From a virus, in the IMG/VR virus record IMGVR_UViG_3300027754_000489, positions 1-21,954 of that record: 21,954 nucleotides of DNA; one strand, given 5' to 3'. The notes beneath the pieces were generated by a model that had not been told where the DNA came from, searched no databases, and worked only from the letters and a program-made list of their open reading frames with translations. This document shows, in pieces, positions 3,358 through 21,954 of this stretch. The translations under genes and the position numbers were made by a program. Numbering within the stretch: position 1 is the stretch's first letter; the number at the start of each line of letters is the position of its first letter.

Positions 3358-4197
3358 ATGACCACATCAGAACGCGCCGCCCCTACCGATAACCTGATCC
3401 GCTCGTCGGCGCCGTCAACGTCGACCATCGCGCTCGGCTCCACTGACGGCGGCGCCGACGGCCGGACTTTGTTCGGCCATTTTTCGGTATTTGACACATG
3501 GACCGAAATAAACTCGATGTTCGAAGGCCGGTTCTTGGAGCGGATCGGCCAGGGTGCGTTCCGGGACACGTTCAAAGCGCAACGAGGCCAAATCCGGGTG
3601 ATTTTCCAACACGGACGAGACCCGCAGATTGGCGACAAGCCACTAGGCGCCCCCGACGTGCTCCGAGAAGACGCCCAGGGCGCTTATTACGAATCCGAAC
3701 TGTTTGACACGCCATACGTAAACGATCTACTGCCGGCGTTGCGTGCGGGGCAGTTGGGGGCGTCTTTCCGGTTCCGGGTCACCGCCGAAGAATGGGTAGA
3801 CCCAAAGAAAGCCACGTCGTCGAACCCTGACAAACTCCCCGAACGTACCATAAGGGCCGTTCACCATTTCGAGCATGGGCCTGTTACTTGGGGTGCGTAT
3901 TCTGACGCCACGGCCGGTGTACGCTCAGGGACAGATGACTTTATCGAGTCGTTGATGACCGACCCGCGGTTTGTGGCCCGTTTCACCGAACGCGCCGGAC
4001 TAAAAGTAGTTGAAAAGATCCTGTCGACGCTGCCTGCTCTTGGGCGCAGCGACGACACCGGAACGGAACCCGACGCCGTCGGTTCCGACGAACAAATGCC
4101 TGATGTGTCGGTCGTCGACCATGCAGAGGATTACCGCAACCAGATCGCCGCGACGCTTATGCGTTTCCGGCACGAACCGAAAGGCCCCCCATGTTGA
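3358..4197 (+). CDS. HK97-family prohead protease
   Basis: This serine protease matures the capsid by removing the N-terminal scaffold domain of the major capsid protein. In this 279-residue protein the core spans about residues 35-205. The catalytic His is H85 in VIFQHGRDP and the nucleophile Ser is S136 in GQLGASFRFRV; TWGAY near 183 lies in the conserved end of the fold. The first 30 residues are Ser/Thr-rich. The C-terminal 75 residues (acidic, then charged) extend beyond the catalytic core and could be a scaffold-like tail. The ATG at 3358 has GAAGGAT upstream. The gene overlaps the capsid gene by 7 nt, consistent with translational coupling. Confidence 0.93.
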   Translation: MTTSERAAPTDNLIRSSAPSTSTIALGSTDGGADGRTLFGHFSVFDTWTEINSMFEGRFLERIGQGAFRDTFKAQRGQIRVIFQHGRDPQIGDKPLGAPDVLREDAQGAYYESELFDTPYVNDLLPALRAGQLGASFRFRVTAEEWVDPKKATSSNPDKLPERTIRAVHHFEHGPVTWGAYSDATAGVRSGTDDFIESLMTDPRFVARFTERAGLKVVEKILSTLPALGRSDDTGTEPDAVGSDEQMPDVSVVDHAEDYRNQIAATLMRFRHEPKGPPC

Positions 4198-5588
4198 TTA
4201 ACGACATTAACGCCCGCCTCGGTGAGATTGACGCGGAGCTAGAACTCCTCGCAGCTCTCCCCGATCCCACCGCCGACGACGTCGCCCGTTCCGAGGAACT
4301 GATCTCCGAAGCCGACGAACGCCGCGCTGCCCGCATCGCCGCTAACGAGCGTTCGCAGCGTATCGCGGCCGCTCACGCCACGGCAAAGGAACAGAACCGC
4401 GATTTCGGCGGGTCGCCGTTCCAGATCATGGCAAAGGTTGACGCCTACGGCACCGACCTCCGCATGATGGACGCCGGCCAGGTAAAGGACGCCGCCCGCT
4501 CAATCCTCGAGCGTAGCGAAGCCCGCCACCTTGCATCCGACTCGAAAGAGAAAGCCGAAGGGCTCATTCAGAACCTTGATGCTCGTCTCGCGAAGCTGGT
4601 CATTACGACCAGCCGACCCGAGTACCGGTCTGCATTCGGGAAGTACATCACCGGCCGCGAAGGGCTTTTGTCGAACGACGAGCGCCGCGCAGTCGAGGAG
4701 TCCCGCACGAGCCTCGCGCTCGCTGACGCTAACGGCGGCTATGCCGTCCCGGCGCTGCTCGACCCGTCGATCATCTTCACCGGTTCCGGTACCGCAAACC
4801 CGATGCGTCAGGTGTCGCGTGTCGTCACCGGCATTGATGACACTTGGCGTGGCGTCACGTCCGCCGGTATCACCGCATCATGGGATTCGGAAGCCATTCA
4901 AGTTTCTGATGATGGGCCGACTCTCGGGCAGGCTACCGTTGTTTCGCACAAGGCTGCGGCGTTCGTGCCGTTCTCCGTGGAGATCGAAGGCGACTGGACC
5001 GGCCTCGCGTCGGAAATGTCGATGCTGTTCGGCGAAGCGAAAGACACCCTAGAGACGGCCGGTTTCGCGACCGGTTCCGGTATCGCAGACAACCCGTACG
5101 GTATCCTCACCGACTTGTTTGCCGCGTCGGCGACTGTTGGCGTGTTGCCGACCACCGACGGTTCGTTCGGTGCGGTTGACGTGCGAGCGTTGTTCGGTGC
5201 TCTCGGTCCTCGTTACCGAGGCCAGGCAGCGTTCATGTCGTCAATCGACGCCATGAACGAAGTCAGAGGTTTCGACACGACCGGCGGGCTCAGTAACCAG
5301 ACCGTCGACCTTACCCAGCCGTACAACTTCGCGGTGTTGGGCCGTCCGTACTACGAGAACTCGGGTTTCCCCGATTTCTCCGGTACGACCGGTGCGGCTA
5401 ACATCCTCGTCGTCGGCGATTTCAGAAACTACGTGATCTTTGATCGTGTAGGCTCCCGAGTAGAGTTCATCCCGCATCTGATGGGCGCCAACAACCGGCC
5501 CAACGGAACCCGCGGCCTTTACTTCTGGTGGCGTGTCGGCGGCAAGACCGTCAACACGAACGCATTCAGGCTTCTTCTGAACGCCTAG
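4191..5588 (+). CDS. Major capsid protein, HK97 fold with N-terminal delta domain
   Basis: This 465-residue protein builds the capsid shell. Residues about 1-150 are charged, helical and coiled-coil-like (ELELLAALPDP, ADERRAARIAANERS), as expected of an internal scaffold (delta) domain cleaved by the protease encoded just upstream. Residues about 170-465 have the HK97 capsid pattern: LADANGGYAVPALLDPSI, PMRQVSRVV, an E-loop region with SWDSEAIQVSDDGPT, FVPFSVEIEGDW, GSGIADNPYGIL, FMSSIDAMNEVR, LGRPYYEN and VVGDFRNYVIFDRVG. It starts inside the end of the protease gene (ATGTTGA overlap). A strong hairpin just after its stop suggests that capsid transcription is buffered from the genes that follow. 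Confidence 0.96.
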   Translation: MLINDINARLGEIDAELELLAALPDPTADDVARSEELISEADERRAARIAANERSQRIAAAHATAKEQNRDFGGSPFQIMAKVDAYGTDLRMMDAGQVKDAARSILERSEARHLASDSKEKAEGLIQNLDARLAKLVITTSRPEYRSAFGKYITGREGLLSNDERRAVEESRTSLALADANGGYAVPALLDPSIIFTGSGTANPMRQVSRVVTGIDDTWRGVTSAGITASWDSEAIQVSDDGPTLGQATVVSHKAAAFVPFSVEIEGDWTGLASEMSMLFGEAKDTLETAGFATGSGIADNPYGILTDLFAASATVGVLPTTDGSFGAVDVRALFGALGPRYRGQAAFMSSIDAMNEVRGFDTTGGLSNQTVDLTQPYNFAVLGRPYYENSGFPDFSGTTGAANILVVGDFRNYVIFDRVGSRVEFIPHLMGANNRPNGTRGLYFWWRVGGKTVNTNAFRLLLNA

Positions 5589-5597
5589 TAATTAAGG

Positions 5598-5637
5598 ATT
5601 CCCCCCGGTCTGCCTAGGCGGTCGGACCGGGGGGAAT
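5598..5637 (+). terminator. Perfect 13-bp hairpin after the capsid gene
   Basis: Arms 5598-5610 (attccccccggtc) and 5625-5637 (gaccggggggaat) are perfectly complementary. The 14-nt loop contains the small palindrome gcctaggc (5612-5619). It begins ten bases after the capsid stop. No T-run follows, so it may be a partial terminator, a processing or mRNA-stability element, or an intrinsic terminator of the U-poor type common in high-GC bacteria. Its role is inferred from position and stem strength. Confidence 0.7.
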
Positions 5638-5664
5638 AACCGCCTACACCGCCCAGGGGAAACG

Positions 5665-5910
5665 ATGGCAAAATATAAATATCCGCGATACGACACAAAC
5701 GTACGTGACGCAGGCAGCAAATATCCGACCGAGATCCGTATAGGCCAAAAATGGCACGCGGATTATCCGCTCGTAAAAGCTCATCCCGAACTGTTCGGCG
5801 ATGAGCCATCCGGGGAACCGTTGCCACGAGGGTTTATCCCTCCGGTAACTCGCGTGGAACAAGCCTCCGCGTCTCCCGGTGAGCGCCGGTCGGTCCGCCG
5901 TGACGATTGA
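5665..5910 (+). CDS. Small hypothetical protein after capsid gene
   Basis: This 81-residue protein starts at ATG 5665 with AGGGG a few bases upstream, the first gene after the capsid hairpin. The first 50 residues are rich in Lys, Tyr and Asp (YKYPRYDTNVRD, then IGQKWHADYPLVKAHPELF). This pattern recurs in small actinophage proteins located between capsid and connector genes. The last 25 residues are polar and charged, with no predicted membrane segment. A head-decoration or head-completion role would fit the position, but I cannot assign a function from sequence. Confidence 0.7.
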   Translation: MAKYKYPRYDTNVRDAGSKYPTEIRIGQKWHADYPLVKAHPELFGDEPSGEPLPRGFIPPVTRVEQASASPGERRSVRRDD

Positions 5911-7309
5911 CCCCGGATCAGTCCGGGTAGCGGTCCTCGTCGACGACGACCACGGCTACCACCCAAACTTTATGGATTCTTGGAACCCGATGCTAGCCGC
6001 CGACCTCGGCGGTCAACAGCGGGTGTGGCGCGGCGGGTACGCGTTCCAGCGTTGCACATCCGCCGGCGTCGTCGAAGGCCGCAACGAAGTCGCAAAAAAC
6101 CTGCTTAGCTCGACCGCCGAATGGTTGCTGTTCGTCGACGCCGACATGGGATGGGACCATACAGCGCTCGAGGATCTGATGGCGGTCGCTGACCCGGTCG
6201 CCCGTCCAATCGTCGGCGGTTTATGTTTTGGGTTCGGTCCGATCACCGATCGGATGGACCACGCAAACGCTGTAGTTAAAGTCCCGTTTCCCACGATCTT
6301 TGACCTTGTGGAACGAGACGACGATTTTGCGTTCCGTCCCCGTTTCTGGTATAAGCCAAACAGCGTTGTCGAATGTTCCGCTACTGGCGCAGCAATGCTG
6401 CTCATTCACCGCACGGTGTTCGAGGCGATCGCAGCTAAACCGGAACTCGGCCAGCCGTTCGACCGCATGAAGCATCCTCGTGGGAAGAAGCTGTGGGGTG
6501 AAGACACGTCGTTTTGTGCCCGTGCGAAAATGTGTGGTTTTCCGACGTATGTGCATACGGGCGTGAAGACTTCGCACGCCAAAACGGTTTATGTGACCGA
6601 GTCGACGTTTCTAGCGCAGGTGCGGCCGCAACCGGCGACCGAGCAGGTAGCGGTTGTGGTCCCTGTGATGAACCGGCCGCAAAACGCGCGGCCGTTTATG
6701 GAATCGTTGCGTGCGTCAACCGGGCTAGCTGCCGTGTATGCCATCGCAGACCCCGACGACCCCGAAACTTACATGGCGTGGATCGCTGCCGGCGCCGAAG
6801 TGCTACTAACGGAAACGGGGCGGTCTTCGTTCCCGCAAAAAGCAAATTTCGGATATGCGCACACTTCGGAACCGTGGCTGCTAGTCGTCGGCGATGACGT
6901 GCGTTTTCATCCGGGCTGGTTGGACCACGCGCAGCAAACCGCTGCGATTACCGGCGCCGACCTAGTCGCAACAAACGACCTAGGAAACCGTCGCGTCGCC
7001 GACGGATTCCACGCAACGCACCCAATGATCCGCCGCACCTACATTGACGAACAGGGCGCGTCGTGGGACGGCCCCGGCGTCCTAGTACACGAAGGGTACC
7101 GGCACAATTTCTGCGACGACGAATGGTCGGCGGTCGCCCGTCAACGTGGCGTGTTCGCCCCGGCGCTCGGCGCTCTCGTGGAACACAACCATCCGATCTT
7201 CGGGAAGGCCGAAGACGACGTCGTGTACCGCAAGGGGAAAGCGCACTACGACCAGGACCGCCGCCTGTTCGAGCGCAGGCTCCGCGACAACACGCAGGCG
7301 TCGGCATGA
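5879..7309 (+). CDS. Tandem (two-domain) GT-A-type glycosyltransferase
   Basis: This 476-residue protein appears to contain two glycosyltransferase-like domains in series. The N-terminal domain (about 15-225) begins with a VAVLVDDD strand and contains VEGRNEVAKNLL, the DxD-type motif LLFVDADMGWD and GEDTSFCARAKMCGF near its end, where the acidic catalytic residue would lie. The C-terminal domain (about 233-470) restarts with VAVVVPVMNRPQNARPF, then ADPDDPETYMAW, FPQKANFGY and LLVVGDDVRFHPGWL, a second GT2-like nucleotide-sugar and metal site. Such enzymes transfer a sugar from an activated nucleotide donor. GTG at 5879 overlaps the upstream gene by 32 nt; GTG at 5900 (11-nt overlap) is equally possible, and neither has a clear ribosome site. 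Linkage to the mutase suggests a galactofuranose donor, which is inference. Confidence 0.85.
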   Translation: MSAGRSAVTIDPGSVRVAVLVDDDHGYHPNFMDSWNPMLAADLGGQQRVWRGGYAFQRCTSAGVVEGRNEVAKNLLSSTAEWLLFVDADMGWDHTALEDLMAVADPVARPIVGGLCFGFGPITDRMDHANAVVKVPFPTIFDLVERDDDFAFRPRFWYKPNSVVECSATGAAMLLIHRTVFEAIAAKPELGQPFDRMKHPRGKKLWGEDTSFCARAKMCGFPTYVHTGVKTSHAKTVYVTESTFLAQVRPQPATEQVAVVVPVMNRPQNARPFMESLRASTGLAAVYAIADPDDPETYMAWIAAGAEVLLTETGRSSFPQKANFGYAHTSEPWLLVVGDDVRFHPGWLDHAQQTAAITGADLVATNDLGNRRVADGFHATHPMIRRTYIDEQGASWDGPGVLVHEGYRHNFCDDEWSAVARQRGVFAPALGALVEHNHPIFGKAEDDVVYRKGKAHYDQDRRLFERRLRDNTQASA

Positions 7310-7488
7310 GTTCGATAGAACGGCACTGCACGCCACATGGGTTCATCGGTCCACTGGAGCCATTGAAGTCTCTTTGCGCTCGCCGACATTGGCCCGCCGG
7401 GTCAGGGGCTTTCGATGTCATCTGCGATTACTGCGGAACCGAGTTCGGTTGGCACGTCGGCCGCAGGCTCCGCAACAACAGCAAATGA
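7306..7488 (+). CDS. Cys-rich mini-protein, possible zinc ribbon
   Basis: This 60-residue protein is fitted between two glycosylation genes with ATGA overlaps at both ends (7306-7309 and 7485-7488), which supports translation. It carries C8, H11, C24 and the knuckle-like CDYCGTEF (C40, C43), followed by H50. This could bind one zinc, although spacing is irregular for a classic zinc ribbon. The C-terminus is basic (GRRLRNNSK). A 19-nt near-perfect direct repeat lies just upstream of its start and at its own 3' end. Function is unknown; a small partner or regulator of the adjacent enzymes is speculation. Confidence 0.65.
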   Translation: MSSIERHCTPHGFIGPLEPLKSLCARRHWPAGSGAFDVICDYCGTEFGWHVGRRLRNNSK

Positions 7489-8543
7489 TCAACGTCGCGG
7501 GTGCCGGCTGGTCCGGCGCAGTGATCGCACGCCGCCTCGCTGAAACAGGGCGCTGTGTGACCGTATGGGAGCCCCGCAGCCACGTCGGCGGGAACTGCTA
7601 CACCGAACGCCGCCACGGCATAAACGTCCACGTCTACGGGCCGCACATCTTCCACACATCAAACGAGCGGGTCTGGCGTTGGGTGAACAAGTGGGGGATG
7701 TGGGAACCGTACCGGCTGAAAGTTATGTCGACCGCTCAGGGCGGCGTGTACTCACTGCCGGTGAACATGCACACCATAAACCAGGCGTTCGGGACAACAG
7801 AAACACCGAAAGGCGCACGGCGACTACTTGAGCTAGGAACAGGCGGTGACACGTTTGAAGATGCCGCCATTGGGGCCGTCGGCGAACGCTTGTACCGTCT
7901 CCTATTCGCCGGGTACACCGCGAAGCAATGGGGTTGCGACCCCAAAGACTTGCCGGCGTCAGTGTTCCGGCGCCTCCCGGTCCGGTTCAACTACGACGAC
8001 AACTATTTCGAGCACCGATGGCAAGCCATCCCCCGCAACGGTTACACCCCGATCTTTGAACGGATCTTGGACCATCCGAACATCACCGTACGGCTCAATG
8101 AGGCGTGCCCCCGTGGCGGGGAACACACCTTCTGGTCAGGTCCGCTCGACGGATGGTTTGGGCATGATGACGGCGCGTTGCATTATCGGACGTTACGGTT
8201 TCAACACATCGAATCGTCGGGGGATTGGCAGGGTGTTGCGTTAATGAACTACCCGGACCGCGGTATCCCGTGGACGCGCAGCGCCGAACATAAACATTTA
8301 GCGCCGTGGGAGTCGCACGACCGGACGATCGTTACCCGTGAAGTGCCAGCTGAATGCGGCCCGGCTGATATCCCGTTTTACCCGATGCACGATCAACCGA
8401 TGTTGCACGCCTCGTATCTTGAACGCGCAGCACAAGAAAAGAATGTAACGTTTGTCGGACGGTTAGGTACCTACCGTTATCTTGATATGGACGTCACGAT
8501 TTCCGAAGCGCTTGACGCAGCGGACCGATACTTAGCAGCCTGA
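7485..8543 (+). CDS. glf: UDP-galactopyranose mutase
   Basis: This FAD enzyme interconverts UDP-galactopyranose and UDP-galactofuranose, the activated donor for galactofuranose (Galf) transfer. The 352 residues agree with bacterial Glf enzymes of somewhat under 400. The start ATG 7485 overlaps the previous stop by 4 nt. Visible family marks are the dinucleotide-binding GAGWSGAVIARRLAETG (6-22), HVGGNCY (33-39), YGPHIFHTS (51-59), YTAKQWGCDP (from about 143), RLPVRFNYDDNYF with the conserved Arg, the IPRNGYTPIF segment and the C-terminal FVGRLGTYRYLDMD flavin motif. Nothing appears truncated. It is translationally coupled within a run of sugar-modifying genes in a phage structural operon, implying a supply of UDP-Galf for those transferases. 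Confidence 0.95.
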   Translation: MINVAGAGWSGAVIARRLAETGRCVTVWEPRSHVGGNCYTERRHGINVHVYGPHIFHTSNERVWRWVNKWGMWEPYRLKVMSTAQGGVYSLPVNMHTINQAFGTTETPKGARRLLELGTGGDTFEDAAIGAVGERLYRLLFAGYTAKQWGCDPKDLPASVFRRLPVRFNYDDNYFEHRWQAIPRNGYTPIFERILDHPNITVRLNEACPRGGEHTFWSGPLDGWFGHDDGALHYRTLRFQHIESSGDWQGVALMNYPDRGIPWTRSAEHKHLAPWESHDRTIVTREVPAECGPADIPFYPMHDQPMLHASYLERAAQEKNVTFVGRLGTYRYLDMDVTISEALDAADRYLAA

Positions 8544-8552
8544 GGGGGCTAC

Positions 8553-9242
8553 ATGACCGCCTTACTTCTTTCCGCACTTTATGGCAACTACGACGCGTTA
8601 AAGCATCCCCCGGAACAGGAAGGCGACGTGCGGTGCATGTTGCTAACCGACGACCTGACCGTGGAATCGGATGTGTGGGAAGTCGTGTACTGGCCTAAAC
8701 CGCATATGATTGGGCTGCTCGCGGCGAAAGCGCCGAAGATGCTCCCGGCCCTCTATGCGCCGGACTGCGACGCATCAGTGTGGGTCGACGCGTCCGTGCA
8801 AGTCTTGTCGCCGACGTTCACCGCCGAATGTGTCGAATATGCCCGAGACGGGTTCGCGACGTGGCCGCACCCGTGGAACCCGACACTAGCCGCCGAAGCC
8901 GCCGAATCGTTGCAACAAACCCGCTACCAAAACCAGATGCTCGAGCAGCAAGTCGAGCGCTTCCACGCAGAAGGGCTCCCCGCTGATACCTCCGTCCGGC
9001 ATACCGCAGTAGTCGCAAGGGCACACAATGACGCGACGCTAACCGCCGGCTATTTATGGGACGCCGAATATGAGTGGTCGATGGCCGATCAGATAGGTTT
9101 CATGTACGCTACCTGGCGGGCGGGTGTGCCAATGTACGAACTACCAATGTCGCAGGCGTTCTTGCAAGGGTTCTTGACCCCTGCCCGCCCCGACCGTTGG
9201 CTTTCGCATCACAGCCACCTGAAAGGCTATTGGGCGCCATGA
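8553..9242 (+). CDS. DUF616/TOD1-MUCI70-like glycosyltransferase-related protein
   Basis: This 229-residue protein begins at ATG 8553, preceded by GAGGGGG. Motifs resembling the DUF616 (TOD1/MUCI70) glycosyltransferase-like family are LYGNYDALKHP near the N-terminus, CMLLTDD, a WEVVYWP strand, KAPKMLPALY and the acidic VWVDASVQV, the likely metal and nucleotide-sugar site. Later, ADQIGFMYATWRAGVPMYELP resembles the conserved end of such domains. It overlaps the following gene by 4 nt. It is probably another transferase in the glycan cassette. The acceptor and donor cannot be read from the sequence. Confidence 0.75.
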   Translation: MTALLLSALYGNYDALKHPPEQEGDVRCMLLTDDLTVESDVWEVVYWPKPHMIGLLAAKAPKMLPALYAPDCDASVWVDASVQVLSPTFTAECVEYARDGFATWPHPWNPTLAAEAAESLQQTRYQNQMLEQQVERFHAEGLPADTSVRHTAVVARAHNDATLTAGYLWDAEYEWSMADQIGFMYATWRAGVPMYELPMSQAFLQGFLTPARPDRWLSHHSHLKGYWAP

Positions 9243-9778
9243 TAAAAGAACTATTTGACCGGTACCGAAACACCCCGTCCGATATCTCCGGGCACCTTCA
9301 ATACATGCACGACCTATGCGTCGAGCTAGGCGCAACATCCGTTGTTGAACTCGGCGTACGAACCGGCGTTTCGACCGCAGCGTTCCTAACAGCTATGGAA
9401 CACAACGGCGGGACTGTTTGGTCCGCGGACATCGACGCGCCACGGGTAGACCCCGAGATCGCAAACCATCCGTGCTGGCAGTTCGTATGGGGCGACGACC
9501 TCGAACTAATCGACCTTGCCCCCGAAGCGGATATAGTCTTTATTGACACTTCGCACGCCTACCAACAAACCCTAGATGAGCTTGACGCATACAGCCCAAA
9601 AGCGCGCCAAGTGATCCTGTTGCACGACACCCAACTAGAGCAGCCCGAAGGGCTCATAAACCAGCCGCCGTTCCCTGTCAGGAAAGCGTGCCTAGAATGG
9701 CTTGACCGGAACCCCGGTTGGGATTGGGAAGAATTCGAGCACTGCTATGGCCTCGGTGTGATGAGGAGAATGACGTGA
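9239..9778 (+). CDS. Class I SAM-dependent methyltransferase
   Basis: This 179-residue protein has a Rossmann methyltransferase fold. Motif I is VVELGVRTGVSTAAFL (about 35-50), followed by an acidic strand-2 end VWSADIDA. A later pair DIVFIDTSHAYQQTLDEL and RQVILLHDT matches the Methyltransf_24 / cephalosporin-hydroxylase-like group, in which FIDxxHxY is typical. The frame is open further upstream, but ATG 9239 gives an ATGA overlap with the previous stop and keeps the canonical N-terminus. It shares the glycosylation operon, so methylation of a sugar is a reasonable guess; small-molecule or protein substrates cannot be excluded. Confidence 0.83.
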   Translation: MIKELFDRYRNTPSDISGHLQYMHDLCVELGATSVVELGVRTGVSTAAFLTAMEHNGGTVWSADIDAPRVDPEIANHPCWQFVWGDDLELIDLAPEADIVFIDTSHAYQQTLDELDAYSPKARQVILLHDTQLEQPEGLINQPPFPVRKACLEWLDRNPGWDWEEFEHCYGLGVMRRMT

Positions 9779-10416
9779 CCATCACTAACGGGCTGCTAAC
9801 CGCCCCCGAGTATGCTTCCTATACCGGGGCGGACGCGCCACTAGGGCTAAGGCTTACACAATGGGAAACAGCGATCGAAGTCGCTTCCCGTTGGGTTGAG
9901 CAGCACTGCGGACGCCAGTTCCACGAAACGGACACCGGGGCTTCGCCGACCCCATCAGCCCGCTATTTCGAGGCGACCGGCGACAAAGTCCAAATAACCG
10001 ACTGTCAGTCTGTGACCATCGTCCAGACAGACACCTTGGACGACGGCACCTATTCGACAACCGTTCCCACATCCGATTATCAACTCCTGCCCGTCGGCGG
10101 TTTCGACGACTTGCTAGGCGTGTCGGTGCCGTATACGGCGATTAAGCAGACGGTGTGGGCGACTTGGCCTGTCGGGTATAGGGACCAGCCGATCAAAGTT
10201 ACGGGCCTTTGGGGCTGGGCGGCTGTCCCGTCCGCGGTCAAACGGGCGACGGCGATCCTTGCCCAAGACTTGCTACGCGACCCCGAAACAAACTTTGGTG
10301 GCCTGGTAGCGCAGAGCGATGGGGTTGTGCTGGGGTCGCGTGTCCCGACGCGAACTATCACGCTTCTTGATCCTTATGTGCGGGCGGTCCGTGCGCCGGG
10401 GGTTCAGGTCGCGTGA
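9775..10416 (+). CDS. Head-tail connector (HK97 gp6-like adaptor)
   Basis: This 213-residue protein is likely the adaptor ring under the portal. The start GTG 9775 overlaps the preceding TGA (GTGA) and has GAGGAG at 9763-9768. The N-terminal helical part includes LTAPEYASYTG and WETAIEVASRWVEQHCGRQF, a pattern shared by phage head-tail connector proteins. A beta-rich insert (ARYFEATGDKVQITDCQSV and DYQLLP) follows, then GLWGWAAVPSAVKRATAILAQ, in which VPxxVKxA is a hallmark of this family. The C-terminal VRAVRAPGV agrees. It resumes morphogenesis after the glycan cassette. Confidence 0.85.
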   Translation: MTITNGLLTAPEYASYTGADAPLGLRLTQWETAIEVASRWVEQHCGRQFHETDTGASPTPSARYFEATGDKVQITDCQSVTIVQTDTLDDGTYSTTVPTSDYQLLPVGGFDDLLGVSVPYTAIKQTVWATWPVGYRDQPIKVTGLWGWAAVPSAVKRATAILAQDLLRDPETNFGGLVAQSDGVVLGSRVPTRTITLLDPYVRAVRAPGVQVA

Positions 10417-10787: not shown

Positions 10788-11386
10788 TGGGTGTGTCTAG
10801 TTCACCAGCGAAGTTTGTCTTGAAAGTTAACGAGCTGACAAAGGTTCCTGAGCGGGTAGCGTTGACCGCTGTTCGCGTCAACGCAAAAAACGCAGGGTCG
10901 AACGCCGAAAAGTCTGTTAGGTCCGCTACGAACGGTTCGGGGCGGCTCCGTAACGCAGGGGCGTTAGTTCGTGCGCCCGGAGCGCAACGCCGGGTCGTGG
11001 GCCGTAAGGGGGCACGGTTGCGAGTGTCTACGAGGGTCGCGCCTGGCGGGCAGTTTGCGACAATAAAAGCTCTTGGCCCGTGGCAACTTATCGAATATCC
11101 GACTGTGAGCCACGAGATCGGCCCCAGCGGCCAAACAAAAGATGTACTGGCCGGCCCTACGCTTTCCGGGCGGAAACTGAAATCGAAATCGGGACGCGCC
11201 GGGGCGAAAGGGCGCCAAGGTCGCGCTAAAGCATTACGGACCCCTTACGGGCTTAAACGGCGAGTGTACGTCAAAGGCACTAAAGGAAAGTTTCCGTGGC
11301 GTGCCGCCCGGCTAAAAACGTACCGTGAAGCGCCGCTAGCAATAAAGAAAGCGGCAACAGCCGAACTAGCAAAGGTGTTCCGATGA
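10787..11386 (+). CDS. Basic head-tail joining protein (HK97 gp10-like)
   Basis: This 199-residue, strongly basic protein starts one base inside the previous stop (TGATG). Many Arg, Lys and Gly residues occur, with a stretch RRVVGRKGARLRVSTRVA (about 65-82) that resembles the conserved core of phage HK97-gp10-like neck proteins, and a basic C-terminal helix ending AKVFR. An internal Lys/Gly/Arg-rich segment (LKSKSGRAGAKGRQGRAKAL) is unusually low in complexity. Position favours a head-tail joining or tail-completion role. The remaining possibility is an unrelated DNA- or RNA-binding protein. The function is moderately supported by order, less by sequence. Confidence 0.6.
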   Translation: MGVSSSPAKFVLKVNELTKVPERVALTAVRVNAKNAGSNAEKSVRSATNGSGRLRNAGALVRAPGAQRRVVGRKGARLRVSTRVAPGGQFATIKALGPWQLIEYPTVSHEIGPSGQTKDVLAGPTLSGRKLKSKSGRAGAKGRQGRAKALRTPYGLKRRVYVKGTKGKFPWRAARLKTYREAPLAIKKAATAELAKVFR

Positions 11387-12393
11387 GAGCACTAGTGATT
11401 GAACCGGGGCCGGCTTTCTCGGTGCTCGACGTTCAACGCGGCATCGTTGCCGGGCTACGCCACAACGGCATCGAAGCGCACTCGTTCAACCTCGGCGACC
11501 GCCTCAACCTATACTGCAACGCAGAACTAGCCGTCGACGGCGAATATCGGAAAGCGTTTGAAAGCGAAGCAGCGTACGCCCTAGCGTCAGAAGGAATCCT
11601 GTCCGCCTGCTGGAAATACGGCCCCGATATTGTTGTCATGGTTTCATCGTTTTTTACCCCGCCGGCGATCTACGAAGCGCTCCGGGCACGAGGCGTACAC
11701 GTCGTCCTTTGGCTGACCGAATCGCCGTACGAAGACGCCCGCCAAATCCCAATGGCACCCTACGCCAACACGGTCATAACAAATGACCCAACGAACCTAG
11801 ACGACTTCCGGGCCGTGAACCCGAACACCCACTATATTCCGCACGGCTACCACCCCGAGATCCACCACAACCAAAACAGGACCGGCCAATACCCGTTTAC
11901 GTTTGTCGGGACCGGGTATCCGTCACGGATAGAACTTTTCGAAAAAGTTGATTGGCCGTGCGAGCCGCTGTTCGCCGGTAACTGGCAGTCGGTAACAGAC
12001 GACTCGCCGTTGTTGCCGTTCCTGCTATATGACCGCGACCAGTGCATAGATAATGACTCTGTCGCCGACCTATACCGGGCGTCGATCACATCTGCAAACA
12101 TTTACCGTAAAGAAGCGATGTCCGACGACCTCGTAGCGGGATGGTCGATCGGCCCACGCGAAGTGGAACTAGCTGCGTGCGGCACCTATTTCGCTCGGGA
12201 ACCTCGAGCAGAAGGCGACGACCTGTTCCCTATGTTGCCAGCATTTACCGAACCCGGCGAGCTAGCAGATATCGTCCGGTGGGCACTCAACCATCCCGAC
12301 GAACGGTTTGCCGCAGCTCAACAGGCACGGGCCGCCGTTACGGATCGCACATTCAAAGACAACGCAGCACTACTTTTAAGGCACATCGGCTAA
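11383..12393 (+). CDS. CgeB-like GT-B glycosyltransferase
   Basis: This 336-residue protein starts at ATGA overlapping the previous gene. It fits glycosyltransferases with a CgeB/DUF3880-type first domain and a Glyco_trans_1_2-type second domain. Visible marks are VVMVSSFFTP, VLWLTESPYED (about 107-117), YIPHGYHPE (about 151-159), TFVGTGYPSRIELF opening the second domain, then GWSIGPREVELAACGTYF, with the acidic residue and Gly typical of donor binding, and FTEPGELADIVRWALNHPDER near the end. It has no homology visible to the transferases at 5879 or 8553. It is the gene before the major tail protein, so the tail tube is a candidate acceptor; this is inference. Confidence 0.87.
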   Translation: MRALVIEPGPAFSVLDVQRGIVAGLRHNGIEAHSFNLGDRLNLYCNAELAVDGEYRKAFESEAAYALASEGILSACWKYGPDIVVMVSSFFTPPAIYEALRARGVHVVLWLTESPYEDARQIPMAPYANTVITNDPTNLDDFRAVNPNTHYIPHGYHPEIHHNQNRTGQYPFTFVGTGYPSRIELFEKVDWPCEPLFAGNWQSVTDDSPLLPFLLYDRDQCIDNDSVADLYRASITSANIYRKEAMSDDLVAGWSIGPREVELAACGTYFAREPRAEGDDLFPMLPAFTEPGELADIVRWALNHPDERFAAAQQARAAVTDRTFKDNAALLLRHIG

Positions 12394-12477: not shown

Positions 12478-12876
12478 ATGGCGCGTATCAGCGGCAAAAA
12501 CGGCATTCTGTATGCAAACATCACATCGGGCGGCACCGCCGAACCGATAGCGTTCCTTAACCAGTTCTCTATGGACTTCACGACCGATAAACAGGACGTG
12601 TCCTGTTTCGGTGACACGACAAAGCAGTACGTTTCCGGGTTCGCTGACGCGTCCGGGGCGTTTGCCGGTTTCTACGACAACGCAACCGCGCAGCTTTACA
12701 CGGCTGCGATCGACGGCGTAGCCCGCAAATTCTACTTTTACCCGACGACCGCATCGACGGCACAGTATTGGTTCGGGACCGGGATTTTCGATTTCTCAAT
12801 CTCGGAACAAACTTCGGGTGGTGTCGCTATCTCCGGTTCGTGGGCGGCGGCTACTGCTGTCGCCAAGGTAGGCTAA
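12478..12876 (+). CDS. Major tail (tube) protein
   Basis: This 132-residue protein starts at ATG 12478 with a strong TAGGAG upstream, consistent with high expression. It is beta-rich, with the run FLNQFSMDFTTDKQDVSCFG, then GDTTKQYVSGFADASGAFAGFYD, ending FSISEQTSGGVAISGSWAA. Such N-to-C patterns (target label, D-V-S/T-xFGD, and the closing SWxA/T) are common to short tail tube proteins of Gram-positive siphoviruses. It is followed by the chaperone and tape-measure genes, the standard order. Its compact length suggests no extra decorative domain. Confidence 0.88.
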   Translation: MARISGKNGILYANITSGGTAEPIAFLNQFSMDFTTDKQDVSCFGDTTKQYVSGFADASGAFAGFYDNATAQLYTAAIDGVARKFYFYPTTASTAQYWFGTGIFDFSISEQTSGGVAISGSWAAATAVAKVG

Positions 12877-13318: not shown

Positions 13319-15595
13319 GTGGCTGGAACCGTTGAACGCTTACAGTTCTTAGTCACGTCAGATTCGGCGCAGGCGCGTGGCGACCTCGGGAAACTGAACC
13401 AGTCGGCGTCGGCGTCGATGTCTGGCATCGCGAAGCTCCAAGAGGCGTTTAAGCTCGGCGCCGGCATCGGCGTCGGTACCACAGCGGTCGAAGGTGTTAT
13501 CGGCGGTTTGCAGAAACTGGGCGGGTTCGCCCTGTCGCAGATGGAATCCGCGATTGGTGCCGCGTCGGATTTGCAACAATCCGCCGGCGCAGTGAAAGCA
13601 ATTTTCGGTTCTGCGTCGAACACGATAAACGATTTTGGGCGTACGTCGGCGCAGTCTGTCGGCTTGTCAACGGCGGCTTTCAGCCAGAGCGCTGCGACGC
13701 TCGGCGCGTTCTTGCAAAATTTGGGTTTGACTAACGACGCTGCGGCTTCGACGTCGATTTCGTTGGTGCAAGTTGGAGCGGATCTAGCTGCGGCGTTCGG
13801 CGGCAAAACGTCTGATGCTGTCGCCGCTATCGGTTCGGCGTTACGTGGCGAACGCGACCCAATCGAACGATACGGGATCAGCGTCAAGCAAGCGGCTGTA
13901 GATGCACGGGTGTTGGCTTCTGGCTTGGACACGTCTACGCAGGCGGCGTTAACGAACGCTCAAGCTCAAGCAACCTTGTCTCTGATCCAAGAACAGGCCG
14001 GGAAGACCGCCGGCCAGTTTGGCCGCGAGTCTGACACGCTTGCGGGGCAGCAGCAGCGGTTCACCGCCGAACTAGAAAACGCACGCGCCGAGCTCGGAAC
14101 TGCGTTACTGCCAGCCATGACCGAACTAGTCAAAATCGGTCGCGATCTGATACCGGTTATCGAAGGGGTAGCGCTCGGCGTCGGCCTAGTAGCCGAAGCA
14201 GCAAAAGACGCCGCCGAACCGGTCGGGAAACTAGCCGGCGTTCTCGGCGCCCTTGTGAAAGCGCTCCCCTCTAACCCTCTAAAGAAATTGTTCGGCGGGG
14301 GGATGAGTGACGAAGAATTTAATCGGCTTGTCGCCGAAGGGGAAGCCACTAAAGCTCTCGCCGATAAAGAATTAGAATTGGGGGAAAAGTCAAGGGTGGC
14401 GGCAGCGGGCACTAAACTTCTCGCCGATCAGATGACCGATTTGCAGAAAGCGTCGTCGGGGCTTCTTGGTTCGCTTATCGGCGCCGACTCGGCAGAATCA
14501 GCATTCTTTAAAACACTTGAAAGCGGCAGTTCTTCCGCCGGGTCAAGCGCAAAAAAGATTGAACGTGCTTACCGGTCTATAGAAGACGCGCAACGATCTT
14601 TAACAGATTCGCAAAAAGAACTAGAAGAATCGTTGATCGCCCGTTTTGTTGTCGGGTTGGGGGCAACGTCGGACGAAATTACGTTAGGTCAGATCGCGGA
14701 GCGTGATTCGACGCGTGGATTGGCAGACGCGAAACGTGATTTGGCTGACGCGCAGTCGCGGCTAAACAAGTTGCGCGAGGTTGACAAGGCCGGGCTCCTC
14801 GACGCCGAAGCCGCATATATTCAAGCTCAACGCGATTTCGTCGACGCCGAAAAGACCGGCGATATTGTGCAACTGAACCGGGCGAAAGCAGATTTGTTAC
14901 GCACAGAGAAAGCGTTGGGCGAGCAGCGCGACCCGTCGGTTACCGGCGATTTGGCGCAAGCCGAACAGGACGTAGCCGCCGCTCAGGACGCGGTGACCAC
15001 CGCAGAGATCGACGCGGTACGATCCCGTAAGGATCTAAACGACCTGATAAACAGCGGCAAGGAAGGTTCTCTGGACCTTGCCGAAGCGAACAAGCAGGTC
15101 GAAGCGGCGCAGCGACGCGTTGAAGGTTCGGAACGGGCGTTGGCCGACGCCCAGGACGCTCTGAACGAGTCGGCGTCGGGGCTCGGCGGCTCAGTCAAGA
15201 ACGTAAACAAACAATTTGAGGACGGTTTGACCGCAGCCGACAAATGGTTGCAAAAACTTATAGACGAGAAAACCACCCCCGAAAAGTTTTCGGCTGCCGT
15301 CGCCGCCATTTATGGCAACCTAAAAAATGTCGCCGACCAGGCAGGCGAAACAGGCAACCTTGACACTTACCTTTCTAAGATCAGCGAAATTTATGCACAG
15401 ATCAGGAACATTTCAGGGTTCGGCAATTTCGCGCCAGGCGGTTTCTCAAACGACCCGGCGAACGCGTTCCAATCACTCCCCGAAACAAAAATTGTTATGA
15501 ATTTGAACGGCCGCGAATTCGGGGCGGCTGTCGTAGAAGGCTTGTTGGCTTACCAGTCAGCGAACGGCAGCGTTCCCATTAGGGTCACCGGATGA
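13319..15595 (+). CDS. Tape measure protein
   Basis: This 758-residue protein is the ruler that sets tail length and probably passes DNA into the cell. It starts at GTG 13319. The N-terminal part has a hydrophobic Gly-rich helix (about 44-72). Residues about 95-260 contain a conserved tape-measure domain: LGAFLQNLGLTND, ALRGERDPIERYGISVKQAA, LTNAQAQATLSLIQEQAG, and FTAELENARAELGTALLPAM. A second hydrophobic helix lies at about 272-295. Residues about 415-620 are long coiled-coil repeats (LADAKRDLADAQSRLNKLRE and similar). By the usual rule of about 0.15 nm per residue the tail would be near 115 nm, an estimate only. It ends with a 4-nt overlap into the next gene. Confidence 0.95.
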   Translation: MAGTVERLQFLVTSDSAQARGDLGKLNQSASASMSGIAKLQEAFKLGAGIGVGTTAVEGVIGGLQKLGGFALSQMESAIGAASDLQQSAGAVKAIFGSASNTINDFGRTSAQSVGLSTAAFSQSAATLGAFLQNLGLTNDAAASTSISLVQVGADLAAAFGGKTSDAVAAIGSALRGERDPIERYGISVKQAAVDARVLASGLDTSTQAALTNAQAQATLSLIQEQAGKTAGQFGRESDTLAGQQQRFTAELENARAELGTALLPAMTELVKIGRDLIPVIEGVALGVGLVAEAAKDAAEPVGKLAGVLGALVKALPSNPLKKLFGGGMSDEEFNRLVAEGEATKALADKELELGEKSRVAAAGTKLLADQMTDLQKASSGLLGSLIGADSAESAFFKTLESGSSSAGSSAKKIERAYRSIEDAQRSLTDSQKELEESLIARFVVGLGATSDEITLGQIAERDSTRGLADAKRDLADAQSRLNKLREVDKAGLLDAEAAYIQAQRDFVDAEKTGDIVQLNRAKADLLRTEKALGEQRDPSVTGDLAQAEQDVAAAQDAVTTAEIDAVRSRKDLNDLINSGKEGSLDLAEANKQVEAAQRRVEGSERALADAQDALNESASGLGGSVKNVNKQFEDGLTAADKWLQKLIDEKTTPEKFSAAVAAIYGNLKNVADQAGETGNLDTYLSKISEIYAQIRNISGFGNFAPGGFSNDPANAFQSLPETKIVMNLNGREFGAAVVEGLLAYQSANGSVPIRVTG

Positions 15596-17481
15596 GTCTT
15601 TCGGCGACTTGCAAAGTATCTATAGCTTTTGCTGATGGCCCGTTGGTGGCGTCTCCGGCGTGGACGGATGTCACGGCGTATGTTCGTTCGGTTCGTACGA
15701 ACCGGGGTCGCAGTAACGAGCTTGACGACTTCCAAGCCGGCACAGCGACAATAGTCCTCGAGAACACTGACCGCCGTTTCGACCCTGATTATGCTTCGGG
15801 GGCGTATTACCCGAACGTGAAGGTTCGCCGCCAAATCAAAGTCGAGGGTGTGTATTCGGCGACGACGTATCCGGTGTTCCGTGGGGTGGTGCAGTCATGG
15901 GGGCAGGATTGGCCGGTTCATAACCGCGACGCTACTTGCACAGTTCAAGCCGTGGATTTGTTCGGTTTGCTTGCGACATGGGATTTGCCCGAGTCCGCAT
16001 ATGAAACCGTTGTGCGTTCGCTGAACCCGACTAGCTGGTTTGATGTGGGTTCTACGGAACCGGCAGACCTGATCGGCCAATCAACTGTTTCTTATGGCGG
16101 GTTGAGGACAGAAGCCGCAGCGTTGGCAGTGGGCAGCACTGGGGCGTCGCGGCACGTTATCGACCCTTACGACGACAACGTGACGGTTTCGTCTGTCGCG
16201 TCTTTCGGGTTCAGCCCCAATTCGTCGAACAAAACGACTTTGGCGGCGTTCGTGAAGGTGTCCGACCTGCTTGAGTCGTACGACGGCGTCGTAGCGTTCG
16301 ACGTGTCGCTATTGGCTGTCGGCGTAAGGCACAATTCGGGAACAGGTGTTTGCAGAGTCGGTGTGGCTTCGACCGGGCAGTTCGTCGGCTACGTTTCGAC
16401 GTCGGGCGGTTCGGCCCAGGTTGGCGGAACGTCCGGCGAAACACTTGTAGACGGCTACCGGCATTATCTGGCTATGGTCCGCGACGGCACCGGTTTAACC
16501 CTTTACCTAGACGGTGTGTCGTTCGCTACCGCTGTAACCGGGTCCACTTCGTTTACCGTCCTAGACGGAACGATCGGGTCCGGGCCGTCTGGTCTGTCGA
16601 TCTCGTCTGTTAGGCGACGCCACGATTTCATCATCGACGAACCGACGGTGTGGCATGGGGTAGCGTTAACGGCCGCGCAGTTGTTGTCGTTGTCCGATAC
16701 CCGTGATGGGTGGGCAGCAGAAACCGCGTCCGCGAGAATTGTCCGCGTGCTCGATTTGTTAACGGTGCCGTCCGGGTTGTACTCGACTACTACAGCGTCG
16801 TCGTCTGTGGGTGCGTTCGTGGGCGGCAGCAACGCTCTCTCATATTTGCAGTCGGTCGCCCGTTCCGATCAGGGACGGCTCTTTGTGGACAGATCCGGTG
16901 TTATCACGTTCCAACCGAAAACGGCAGACATGGGCGGTTCCGCGTCGGTAACGTTCGCTGATGACACTACGGCGTCGTCGGTGCGTTACTCCGGGTTCGG
17001 CCTTGAGTACGACGACCGGCTGATTTATAACGATGTTGTTATCGCCGGGGTTAATTGTGAGGCAAAGAAAGAGAATTTGACTTCGATAGCGGCGTACTCG
17101 CAGCGGAGTTTGTCGCTTCGGACGCAACTTCCGACGACGGCGGCGGCTAGAGACGTCGCAGAAGCTACCGTGGCCCGGTATGCAGACCCGTCGACACGCG
17201 GCAAAGGTTGGAAAGCCCATCCGCAACGTGCGCTAAACGGCGTGTCTACCCTAGGGTATGCGACAGTTTTAGGGCGCGAACTCGGCGACCTTGTTTCAAT
17301 TAAACGCACCCCGCCTGTCGGGACTGCGATAACGCAAACAGTGTCGGTAACGTCTATCGGCCACGATATAAACATTCCCGAAGGAAAATGGGATGTGTCT
17401 TTTACGGGCGCTCCCGCATACACAACAGCATCATTTCGTTGGGGTACCTCTAATTGGGGTGGAACGGATTATTGGTCGTGA
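15592..17481 (+). CDS. Minor tail protein with LamG-like domain
   Basis: This 629-residue protein starts at ATGA overlapping the tape measure. The first ~150 residues (VRTNRGRSNELDDFQAGTAT, IVLENTDRRFDPDY, YPVFRGVVQSW and VQAVDLFGLL) form a tail-tip or hub-like domain common in actinophage minor tail proteins. Residues about 200-365 look like a concanavalin/LamG carbohydrate-binding sandwich, with YLAMVRDGTGLTLYLDGV and FIIDEPTVWHGVALTAAQLL. After it come DGWAAETASARIVRVLDLL, SYLQSVARSDQGRLFVDRSG and a C-terminal beta-rich end. It probably forms part of the tail tip and may contact surface glycans. Confidence 0.85.
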   Translation: MSLSATCKVSIAFADGPLVASPAWTDVTAYVRSVRTNRGRSNELDDFQAGTATIVLENTDRRFDPDYASGAYYPNVKVRRQIKVEGVYSATTYPVFRGVVQSWGQDWPVHNRDATCTVQAVDLFGLLATWDLPESAYETVVRSLNPTSWFDVGSTEPADLIGQSTVSYGGLRTEAAALAVGSTGASRHVIDPYDDNVTVSSVASFGFSPNSSNKTTLAAFVKVSDLLESYDGVVAFDVSLLAVGVRHNSGTGVCRVGVASTGQFVGYVSTSGGSAQVGGTSGETLVDGYRHYLAMVRDGTGLTLYLDGVSFATAVTGSTSFTVLDGTIGSGPSGLSISSVRRRHDFIIDEPTVWHGVALTAAQLLSLSDTRDGWAAETASARIVRVLDLLTVPSGLYSTTTASSSVGAFVGGSNALSYLQSVARSDQGRLFVDRSGVITFQPKTADMGGSASVTFADDTTASSVRYSGFGLEYDDRLIYNDVVIAGVNCEAKKENLTSIAAYSQRSLSLRTQLPTTAAARDVAEATVARYADPSTRGKGWKAHPQRALNGVSTLGYATVLGRELGDLVSIKRTPPVGTAITQTVSVTSIGHDINIPEGKWDVSFTGAPAYTTASFRWGTSNWGGTDYWS

Positions 17482-18045: not shown

Positions 18046-18605
18046 TGATCGCCGCATATTGTTTGCCGGGCGCCGACCCTGACCTGGCGGAACCGTTCGC
18101 GACGCGTTTGTCTGTGCTGCTCGAGCGGTTCGGCGGCAGGCTTATGGTGATGTCCGGGCGGCGCAGCTACGCCGAACAGCAGCGGCTGTATGCCGCCTAT
18201 CTGGCAGGCGGGAACCTTGCCGCTAAGCCCGGCACGTCGAACCACGAGCGGGGCTTAGCGGCCGACCTAGACCGCACCGACGGCGCATCGCTGCCGTGGG
18301 TGGACGTTCACCGTGTGGCGGCAACCGCCGGGCTATGCTTCCCTTTGTACGCTGCAGGGCTAGGCGAACCGTGGCACGTCGAATCAGATCCGACATGGGT
18401 CGACCCTACCGAGGAAGTGCTAGACATGACCCGACAAGAATTAGCGGAAGCGTTCGGCGGCAGCCTCGACACCGAAGGCCGGATTGTTATTCCGCTCGCA
18501 GACGGCAACTTGTACCCGGTCGGGAACATCCTCGGTTTTATTCACGGTGAGTTGACCCGCCCGGATCTGTTGTTGGCGCGTATAAAGATTGCGCTCGGCT
18601 CGTGA
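18045..18605 (+). CDS. Endolysin: M15 peptidase with C-terminal shared module
   Basis: This 186-residue protein cleaves peptidoglycan peptide stems. The N-terminal M15 (VanY/Ply-type) domain shows SGRRSYAEQQRLY (37-49), TSNHERGLAADL with H67 and D74, and GEPWHVE with E108 and H111, which together supply the zinc ligands (H67, D74, H111) and the catalytic acid. Residues 128-186 are a separate module that begins TRQELAEAFGG and ends near GELTRPDLLLAR. It is almost identical to the N-terminus of the last fibre gene in this window. ATG 18045 is preferred over an upstream open stretch because it gives TAATG coupling. An internal ATG at 18426, with GAGGAAG eight bases upstream, could also make this module alone. 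It is placed among tail genes, so a virion role cannot be excluded. Confidence 0.9.
   Translation: MIAAYCLPGADPDLAEPFATRLSVLLERFGGRLMVMSGRRSYAEQQRLYAAYLAGGNLAAKPGTSNHERGLAADLDRTDGASLPWVDVHRVAATAGLCFPLYAAGLGEPWHVESDPTWVDPTEEVLDMTRQELAEAFGGSLDTEGRIVIPLADGNLYPVGNILGFIHGELTRPDLLLARIKIALGS
18426..18605 (+). CDS. Possible internal-start product of endolysin C-terminal module
   Basis: Within the endolysin frame, ATG 18426 is preceded by GAGGAAG at 18411-18417, spaced eight bases. Translation from it would give a 59-residue protein that is exactly the shared module. Its opening lines up with the true start of the fibre gene at 21473, which uses the same MT...ELAEAFGG opening. Some phage endolysins make their binding domain alone from such internal starts. 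That is family knowledge; here it is a prediction. Confidence 0.4.
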   Translation: MTRQELAEAFGGSLDTEGRIVIPLADGNLYPVGNILGFIHGELTRPDLLLARIKIALGS

Positions 18606-21472: not shown

Positions 21473-21954
21473 ATGACACCACACGAGCTAGCGGAAGCGT
21501 TCGGCGGACAACTTGACACCAAGGGGCGCGTGGTGATACCGCTTGCCGACGGCGAGCTGTATCCGCTCGGGGACATCTTGGGCTTTATTCACGGCGAACT
21601 GACCCGCCCCGATCTGCTACTCGCGCGGGTTGTCGCAGCGGTCGGACGGTCGGCGCCGGCGCCGATCCCGTACCCGGTCCCCGCACCGGTCCCGAAGCCG
21701 ATCCCTGCTCCCCCACCTCCCATCCCCGCACCGATCCCCGCACCGATCCCCGCACCGATCCCCGCACCGATCCCGACGCCCGCAGGGTCGCCGATCGACA
21801 AAGAGTTTGCGGCACGCTACTCGACCGGGACCGGCACCGCCACACAATATGTGGCACTCACTGGAAACGACACCAACGCTGGCACCGCCGCCGCCCCGAA
21901 ACGTACCGTCCTCGCCGCCGCTCGAGCACTCACCGTAGGCGGAACCGTCTACGT
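21473..21954 (+). CDS. Tail fibre/spike with shared module and beta-helix start (cut by window)
   Basis: The frame is open from ATG 21473 to the right edge (160 codons seen). AGGAGGGG at 21461-21468 is an excellent ribosome site. Residues 1-53 are nearly identical (44/53 positions by my count) to residues 128-180 of the endolysin. Residues about 60-105 are a Pro-rich linker with IPAP repeats encoded by a 12-bp tandem repeat. Residues about 120-160 begin a right-handed beta-helix: YVALTGNDTNAGTAAAPKRT, then AARALTVGGTVYV, as in pectate-lyase-like phage depolymerases. The first module probably anchors the protein, or binds the cell wall, and the rest could be a polysaccharide-degrading spike. 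The catalytic part is outside the window. Confidence 0.82.
   Translation, partial: MTPHELAEAFGGQLDTKGRVVIPLADGELYPLGDILGFIHGELTRPDLLLARVVAAVGRSAPAPIPYPVPAPVPKPIPAPPPPIPAPIPAPIPAPIPAPIPTPAGSPIDKEFAARYSTGTGTATQYVALTGNDTNAGTAAAPKRTVLAAARALTVGGTVY
21722..21769 (+). repeat. Four perfect 12-bp tandem repeats (IPAP linker)
   Basis: The unit atccccgcaccg is repeated four times without change and is in frame, coding for Ile-Pro-Ala-Pro. Imperfect copies lie on both sides. Length changes would keep the frame and alter linker length by four residues each time. Confidence 0.9.

Follow-up and report, generated by a model that had tools for sequence, protein, structure and literature searches.

Why should a tailed phage keep genes of sugar chemistry in the middle of the operon that encodes its head? 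The question is raised by IMG/VR virus record IMGVR_UViG_3300027754_000489, positions 1–21,954 of which were analysed (21,954 bases, hereafter the window; coordinates refer to it unless another record is named). Five tightly packed open reading frames (ORFs) lie there on the + strand at 5879–9778, with 4-nt overlaps at three of the four junctions, 3′ of the major capsid gene and 5′ of the gene for the head–tail adaptor, or connector. An earlier note had described them as a galactofuranose (Galf) modification cassette inside the capsid operon. All five ORFs are present between the capsid and connector genes as it proposed, and its family assignments were borne out by hidden Markov model search (PF03275, PF00535, PF04765 and PF13578/PF04989). 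In addition, the gene of an 81-aa head protein (5665–5910) lies between capsid gene and cassette.

The reading that we prefer, with moderate confidence, is that the five genes serve to glycosylate the virion, as a cassette with a swappable donor step within the late head operon of a tailed, probably actinobacterial phage. In this phage the donor step is probably set to Galf, likely in a methylated form. The genes concerned and their borders are as follows.

4191..5588, + strand: major capsid protein, HK97-type (PF05065 2e-31; phrog_10)
5665..5910, + strand: 81-aa capsid-adjacent head protein (19/26 family members match phrog_9538)
5879..7309, + strand: tandem GT-A glycosyltransferase with two GT2-type domains, 476 aa (PF00535; AF2 model, pLDDT 93.8)
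7306..7488, + strand: 60-aa CxxC mini-protein with four Cys (weak phrog_2210 match, E 0.004)
7485..8543, + strand: UDP-galactopyranose mutase (Glf/UGM), 352 aa (PF03275 8e-64; Klebsiella UGM 2bi7, E 1e-113)
8553..9242, + strand: DUF616/TOD1-MUCI70 glycosyltransferase, 229 aa (PF04765 TOD1_MUCI70 6e-08)
9239..9778, + strand: S-adenosylmethionine-dependent O-methyltransferase, 179 aa (PF13578 7e-11; PF04989 RMNT_CmcI 1.5e-06)
9775..10416, + strand: head–tail adaptor, the downstream border of the slot (phrog_442 1e-17, match at 9739–10413)

Relatives of the tandem glycosyltransferase were collected in one scan that gave 51 loci and in a profile scan that gave 233 relatives, 80 of which were taken. 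The 99 loci examined comprise 98 from the IMG/VR scans and an Amycolatopsis prophage (L062), which is counted twice, being present also as IMG/VR locus L198; a record nearly identical to the window was excluded. They fall into 82 clusters at 90% nucleotide identity, and six of the 99 are cut at the edge. With adjacency counted on domain coordinates (superseding a stop-to-stop count, in which 86 of 100 rows, window included, lay within 1.5 kb), the capsid gene was found at most 2.5 kb upstream of the tandem glycosyltransferase in 90 of 93 informative loci, and the 81-aa gene in 89 of 93. In terms of non-redundant clusters, the transferase stands next to the capsid gene in 73 of 76 informative ones. 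This adjacency, recurring in 90/93 relatives, exceeds chance. The exceptions are L054 and L225, where portal and protease genes are upstream and the capsid gene was not recognised, and L215, where DUF616, SDR (see below) and 81-aa genes lie between capsid and transferase with the whole set still in the head operon. To judge from these gene orders, the tandem glycosyltransferase is the constant core of the cassette.

A second arm is found at the tail genes.

11383..12393, + strand: second glycosyltransferase (PF13524 1e-10)
12478..12876, + strand: major tail protein (phrog_10528 4e-08)

This second enzyme, presumably of GT-B type as a PF13524 member, has 346 relatives in IMG/VR, of which 80 were taken. 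Seventy-nine loci were examined, four of which end too early, and the major tail protein gene lies at most 1.5 kb downstream in 71 of the 75 informative ones. With one transferase coupled to the capsid gene and the other to the tail gene, each abundant virion protein has a transferase as its neighbour, and such genetic coupling to virion genes, here 90/93 and 71/75, is a supporting mark of a virion glycosylation system. The major capsid protein would be the likeliest glycan acceptor of the first arm, and the major tail protein is the likely acceptor of the second.

Another mark of such a system, a phage-encoded glycosyltransferase with intact motifs, is present as well: residues D87, D89 and D340 of the tandem enzyme are invariant across 38 aligned sequences. 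Its second domain matches PF00535 and its first PF13641 (9.5e-06; 26.2 bits, below the cut-off of 27), and the AF2 model folds into two GT-A domains. In domain-wise structure searches, where only one of the 50 matches listed covers the first domain alone and most cover the second only, the first domain was best matched by STIV A197 (Z 19.4, 174 residues, 2.5 Å), and the second by a near-tie of heparosan synthase, an archaeal mannosyltransferase and ppGalNAc-T2 (Z 18.5–18.9; ppGalNAc-T2 18.5), resembling protein O-GalNAc transferases among others. Taken whole, the protein bears only a loose resemblance to COLGALT1, chondroitin polymerase and similar two-domain enzymes (TM ~0.28). A transferase of the GlfT1/GlfT2 type is not among the Foldseek/VIA matches listed for it, an absence that excludes nothing, and no sequence relative in the PDB was found for its profile, for the methyltransferase or for the second glycosyltransferase. 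The model of the DUF616 protein (AF2 pLDDT 89.9) has a GT6-like fold (alpha-1,3-galactosyltransferase, Z 12.7, 200 residues, 3.4 Å), and its viral structural matches are annotated as TOD1/MUCI70 or glycosyltransferase; the methyltransferase is closest to rhamnosyl-O-methyltransferase/CmcI. Among 50,697 INPHARED phage records, the tandem glycosyltransferase has five partial matches and no more, and the DUF616 protein and the second glycosyltransferase have none (E 1e-5 in each case).

Between tandem glycosyltransferase and connector, gene content points to a variable slot in which the donor-making gene would be the swappable part. A DUF616 gene is found in 18 of the 99 relatives, preceded in 11 by an SDR gene and in six by none, with one rearranged (L215); in non-redundant clusters the SDR state is counted 11 times and the state without SDR twice. 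SDR here denotes a sugar-nucleotide epimerase/dehydratase-like enzyme, akin to dTDP-glucose dehydratases and GalE, with scores below every cut-off. The order tandem glycosyltransferase, SDR, DUF616, methyltransferase holds in nine of the 11 SDR loci (the methyltransferase precedes DUF616 in L021, and none was recognised in L025), and the same order minus the SDR holds in the six others. In the window, mini-protein and mutase occupy the SDR position. The closest relative, L182, reads tandem glycosyltransferase, SDR, DUF616, methyltransferase, connector, glycosyltransferase, tail protein; its identity to the window is 75% for the tandem glycosyltransferase and 72% for the methyltransferase, with 73% for the connector and 70% for the second glycosyltransferase. 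The mutase was seen in none of the 99 relatives' loci, nor did a PF03275 search find it in 50 whole records; many of these are fragments. The mutase is not a conserved part of the cassette; it was seen in this phage only, at a site held elsewhere by another sugar-nucleotide enzyme or by none.

A Pfam scan of 116 slot ORFs (the first three per locus of at least 75 aa, seven near-duplicate loci and the window excluded), some of which are connector or fibre genes, gave a methyltransferase family as the commonest (17), then epimerase and GDP-mannose dehydratase families (10 each), 2OG-Fe(II) oxygenases (six) and TOD1 (five). These tallies are lower bounds, the ORFs having been chosen by length; for example, L021:9433–10416, which matches no family, is probably in the wrong frame, with the SDR in another. 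The 2OG-Fe(II) oxygenases adjoin the tandem glycosyltransferase in several slots, for instance at 11361–11990 of the Amycolatopsis prophage L062, and hydroxylation before glycosylation is conceivable there, as in collagen. A further type of slot enzyme is an FAD-dependent oxidoreductase (PF01266) at L029 10607–11629.

An empty form of the slot is seen in Gordonia phage Eyre and Mycobacterium phage Brujita, whose capsids are 40% and 37.5% identical to that of the window and in which the homologue of the 81-aa gene is directly followed by the connector gene. The 81-aa protein is related to Brujita gp8 (hhalign E 1.9e-07) and Eyre gp7 (E 1.6e-10) and has no match in the 50,697 INPHARED records at the threshold used. 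It shares with 25 relatives, and with both of these proteins, a conserved C-terminal VEQATAAPGE(R/K)R-like motif, which could be an acceptor or an assembly signal.

Is the gene that fills the slot in the window a true mutase? It matches over its full length, with GLF PF03275 at 215.5 bits (cut-off 26.3) and an FAD-binding Rossmann domain (PF13450). Residues W149, R163, Y174, R265, Y299, R326 and Y332 are invariant in 13 aligned mutases and correspond in the 2bi7 alignment to W160, R174, Y185, R280, Y314, R343 and Y349 of Klebsiella UGM, which we take to be substrate/diphosphate-binding, active-site positions. The mutase structure from M. tuberculosis is a weaker match than that from Klebsiella (5e-73 versus 1e-113). 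GC content and third-position GC are like those of the neighbouring genes, and so the mutase looks neither newly acquired from a foreign source nor in decay.

The phage copy shares full-length homology and the conserved active site with bacterial UGM, but in a 71-row tree it clusters with ten viral mutases (99/95), on a long branch of its own (0.73) and with its exact placement unsure. It stands outside a 19-row actinobacterial clade that includes an Amycolatopsis copy, in a tree without a named mycobacterial row; direct acquisition from an actinobacterial host is disfavoured by this tree. Four actinobacterial copies (L067–L070) share a larger 20-row group with it, the nearest being 57% identical. 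Eight of the ten viral mutases lie directly behind a terminase gene (18–32 nt to the aligned start), a ninth follows it at about 2 kb, and the record of the tenth is cut off there. Among 84 viral mutase loci, one terminase family is found less than 2.3 kb upstream in 20 and within 32 nt in eight, and Terminase_3C is present in 15 of 19 records searched; these phages are related and were counted as one lineage. In an unrelated head operon (L117 1729–12535) the order is terminase, mutase, FkbM methyltransferase, DUF616, Stealth_CR2, an unassigned gene, protease, another unassigned gene and a Phage_cap_E capsid, and its mutase is on a different tree branch from that of the window. In two further phage lineages, the terminase-linked one and L117, a mutase is likewise found within the packaging or head genes.

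The cassette as a general trait of viral mutases was considered and rejected, as neither this capsid family nor the 81-aa gene occurs in any of the 84 loci. Partial tandem-glycosyltransferase matches occur in only five of the 84, and the PF05065 capsid was found in none of 50 viral mutase records tested (30 of 80 loci were outside that search). INPHARED holds 88 records matching the mutase. Cultured phages such as Aeromonas T4-like phages, Pootjesviridae, Lactobacillus phage ATCCB and Streptococcus suis elements likewise bear a mutase; unlike in the window, no annotated capsid, portal or terminase gene adjoins it in the stretches shown of seven annotated contexts, where many neighbours are unannotated. 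In RL38J1 and phiM9, fibre- or decoration-like genes are a few kb from the mutase. In the cyanophage-like L004 (1649–4905), a glycosyltransferase-like ORF, a mutase and a psbA-like gene stand in a row, the first and third named by eye.

Several points weigh against a Galf-decorated virion. The mutase score of 272.7 bits (residues 4–349) is below the TIGR00031 equivalog cut-off of 303.75; the shortfall weakens the case for strict equivalence, not for family membership. Since the mutase is absent from the 99 relatives, comparison within the lineage is uninformative on Galf. The structural match lists also include polysaccharide synthases and teichoic-acid transferases, and hence the matches leave donor and acceptor unfixed. 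The DUF616 protein of the window is only 36% identical to that of L182, from which it at first seemed clear that donor enzyme and transferase had been replaced together. Such an exchange is possible, but the idea is weakened because DUF616 is divergent in SDR–SDR pairs too (36–64%; in L021–L191 it is 63% identical at a similar glycosyltransferase identity of 73%). The phage is uncultured, and glycosylation, enzyme activity and the acceptor protein are all deduced from genes. Moreover, the two overlapping records of it jointly span ~31 kb, against 60–70 kb for the longest records of the family, and much of the genome may thus be unseen.

Some of these points bear on an unlikely alternative, which is nevertheless the one that survives best: the tandem glycosyltransferase would glycosylate the virion while the product of the mutase is not transferred, the enzyme being inactive or serving another nucleotide sugar. 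The score under the equivalog cut-off and the long end branch are compatible with this, as are the relatives that carry the tandem glycosyltransferase with no mutase. The full-length match, the seven invariant active-site residues and a base composition like that of the neighbours argue the other way.

Slightly less likely again is an action on the host envelope, in which a Galf polymer of the wall or a polysaccharide would lead to superinfection exclusion or a receptor change. Bacterial mutases, matched in 73 of 396 sampled actinobacterial genomes, generally feed surface glycans and polysaccharides, and the transferase domains are also like teichoic-acid and polysaccharide transferases. A serotype-converting cluster of the gtr type consists of a flippase and a membrane glycosyltransferase. 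The scan of gene products, which covered an incomplete genome minus a few small genes, recognised no flippase, polymerase, membrane transferase or gene for base modification, and a strongly hydrophobic span is present in two small non-cassette proteins, at 1825 and 18602, and in no cassette protein. The head-operon position in relatives and the tree position of the mutase, apart from the clade with the Amycolatopsis copy, also oppose an envelope role. The viral-type grouping of the mutase, the lack of hydrophobic spans and the lack of a recognised flippase or polymerase in that scan equally disfavour the part of the earlier note that had the cassette changing host arabinogalactan.

It is improbable that the five genes belong to no single pathway and that moron genes have simply collected in the slot. 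Slot contents are indeed highly variable and many of the ORFs have no family, but a fixed gene order recurs in nine of 11 SDR loci and, minus the SDR, in six others, and mutase, DUF616 and methyltransferase recur together in the unrelated L117 operon. Placement of the glycans on phage DNA bases is the least probable of all: the mutase of Lactobacillus phage ATCCB does adjoin a thymidylate synthase and a beta-glucosyltransferase, and DNA glycosyltransferases encoded by viruses are reported to be diverse (Pyle 2024, as cited elsewhere), but the cassette sits among structural genes, and thymidylate synthase/dNMP hydroxymethylase PF00303 was found neither in 19 long family records (each possibly incomplete) nor in the upstream genes scanned.

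Returning to virion glycosylation, we infer the following scheme, including the activities, the acceptor, the step order and the transferase that uses UDP-Galf, from what is directly established: gene identities, predicted folds, conserved active-site residues, synteny and slot variation. The cassette would be co-expressed late, perhaps damped by a hairpin after the capsid gene (below). The phage mutase would convert host UDP-galactopyranose to UDP-galactofuranose, and the tandem GT-A enzyme would start and extend a short glycan on freshly made capsid protein, or on its 81-aa neighbour. The GT6-like DUF616 enzyme would attach a further sugar, perhaps galactofuranose, and the methyltransferase would cap the glycan by O-methylation, while the separate second glycosyltransferase would act likewise on the major tail protein. 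Exchange of the donor gene would then change the type of glycan and leave the core machinery unchanged. The central proposal of the earlier note, decoration of the virion, gains support from the capsid- and tail-coupled transferases, their folds, and the other lineages with a mutase in packaging or head modules, and it stays an inference.

How does this arrangement compare with known systems? In mycobacteriophages (Che8, Rita), capsid and major tail (tail-tube) protein are reported to be glycosylated, with phage-encoded glycosyltransferases (Freeman et al. 2023, as described in citing papers), and a Rhodococcus-phage paper likewise pairs a glycosyltransferase with a methyltransferase. The acceptors, shown there and proposed here, and the phage-encoded transferases are alike. 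In contrast, the F1 phage Maravista has its glycosyltransferases close to the 3′ end of its genome, whereas here each adjoins a structural gene, and a donor-making enzyme is present here while the accessible text on the mycobacteriophage system mentions none. STIV A197, the best structural match of the first domain, is an essential gene and the candidate enzyme for the glycosylated STIV coat protein, and so also a viral glycosyltransferase proposed for coat glycosylation (PMC4187194, PMC10551542, in the parts available). Unlike the phage system, STIV is an archaeal virus with a single-domain enzyme and a presumably host-derived donor, and those parts describe neither a mutase nor a methyltransferase for it. 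No open-access paper was found that joins galactofuranose, bacteriophage capsid and glycosyltransferase, although one may be in print elsewhere, and none that joins phage-encoded glycosyltransferase, capsid protein and glycosylation.

Three further elements of the locus may bear on expression of the cassette and on its history.

5598..5637, + strand: GC-rich hairpin directly 3′ of the capsid gene, from folding of the stretch 5589–5664
7269..7292, + strand: direct repeat copy 1, 24 nt, near the 3′ end of the tandem glycosyltransferase gene
7457..7480, + strand: direct repeat copy 2, 24 nt, 3′ end of the mini-protein gene

The stretch 5589–5664 folds at −37.1 kcal/mol (z −2.8), which was equalled by one of 200 shuffles, and low folding energies are likewise found 3′ of the capsid gene in relatives, for which there was no shuffle control. 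The hairpin is possibly an attenuator or an RNA-processing site that lowers cassette expression. Scans for sigma-70 promoters and terminators gave no excess over shuffles. The two repeats are 88% identical at a spacing of 188, and their 18-nt core is expected 0.01 times by chance; they may be the scar of an exchange that introduced the mutase. A homologue of the mini-protein encoded between them is absent from the relatives' loci searched, so that it was found in this phage only.

The late operon as a whole runs from terminase, portal, protease and capsid through the 81-aa head protein, tandem glycosyltransferase, 60-aa CxxC protein, mutase, DUF616 protein and methyltransferase to head–tail adaptor, tail terminator, a 199-aa protein, the second glycosyltransferase, major tail protein, a 101-aa protein and tape measure. 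The adaptor frame is open from 9718, and its likely GTG start at 9775 would overlap the methyltransferase stop by 4 nt. Another IMG/VR record (L061) is 99.95% identical over 18,433 nt, which argues against mis-assembly, although it may not be an independent sample. Its upstream sequence encodes a WhiB-family regulator (L061 3053–3805), two DNA methylases and a primase-polymerase. WhiB is a pointer to an actinobacterial host, and the sole relative from a scan of bacterial genome contigs is the Amycolatopsis pretoriensis prophage L062; from these two observations, the host is probably an actinobacterium. Proteins at 15592–17481 and at L062 12518–13417 have LamG/concanavalin-like domains and are possible glycan binders. 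Elsewhere, the C-terminal stretch of a VanY-like protein (~18423–18602) is repeated near the start of a later ORF (21473–21650) as an internal duplication, ELAEAFGG...LTRPDLLLAR.

The larger finding is that genes are arranged in two arms throughout the lineage, in a way that points to glycosylated virions with an exchangeable donor chemistry, of which the mutase is one rare allele. More tentatively, and with slightly less than even confidence, we propose that a large uncultured actinophage lineage has two-arm virion glycosylation with an exchangeable, serotype-like donor and capping slot, that the window is its galactofuranose serotype, with a phage-supplied furanose donor encoded in the capsid operon, and that other lineages have come separately to something similar. 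To our knowledge, phage coat sugars have so far come to light one phage at a time. In this lineage the acceptor, capsid or tail tube, would be indicated by gene order alone for dozens of uncultured phages, and the naturally occurring swaps at the donor position (epimerase-like enzyme, none or mutase) predict differing coat chemistries on a common core. Mammals lack Galf, so that a coat made of it would be easy to detect, and it would bear on the recognition of phages by lectins and antibodies. Moreover, such swap alleles would make the purpose of virion glycosylation testable, be it shielding, stability or adhesion to host or environment.

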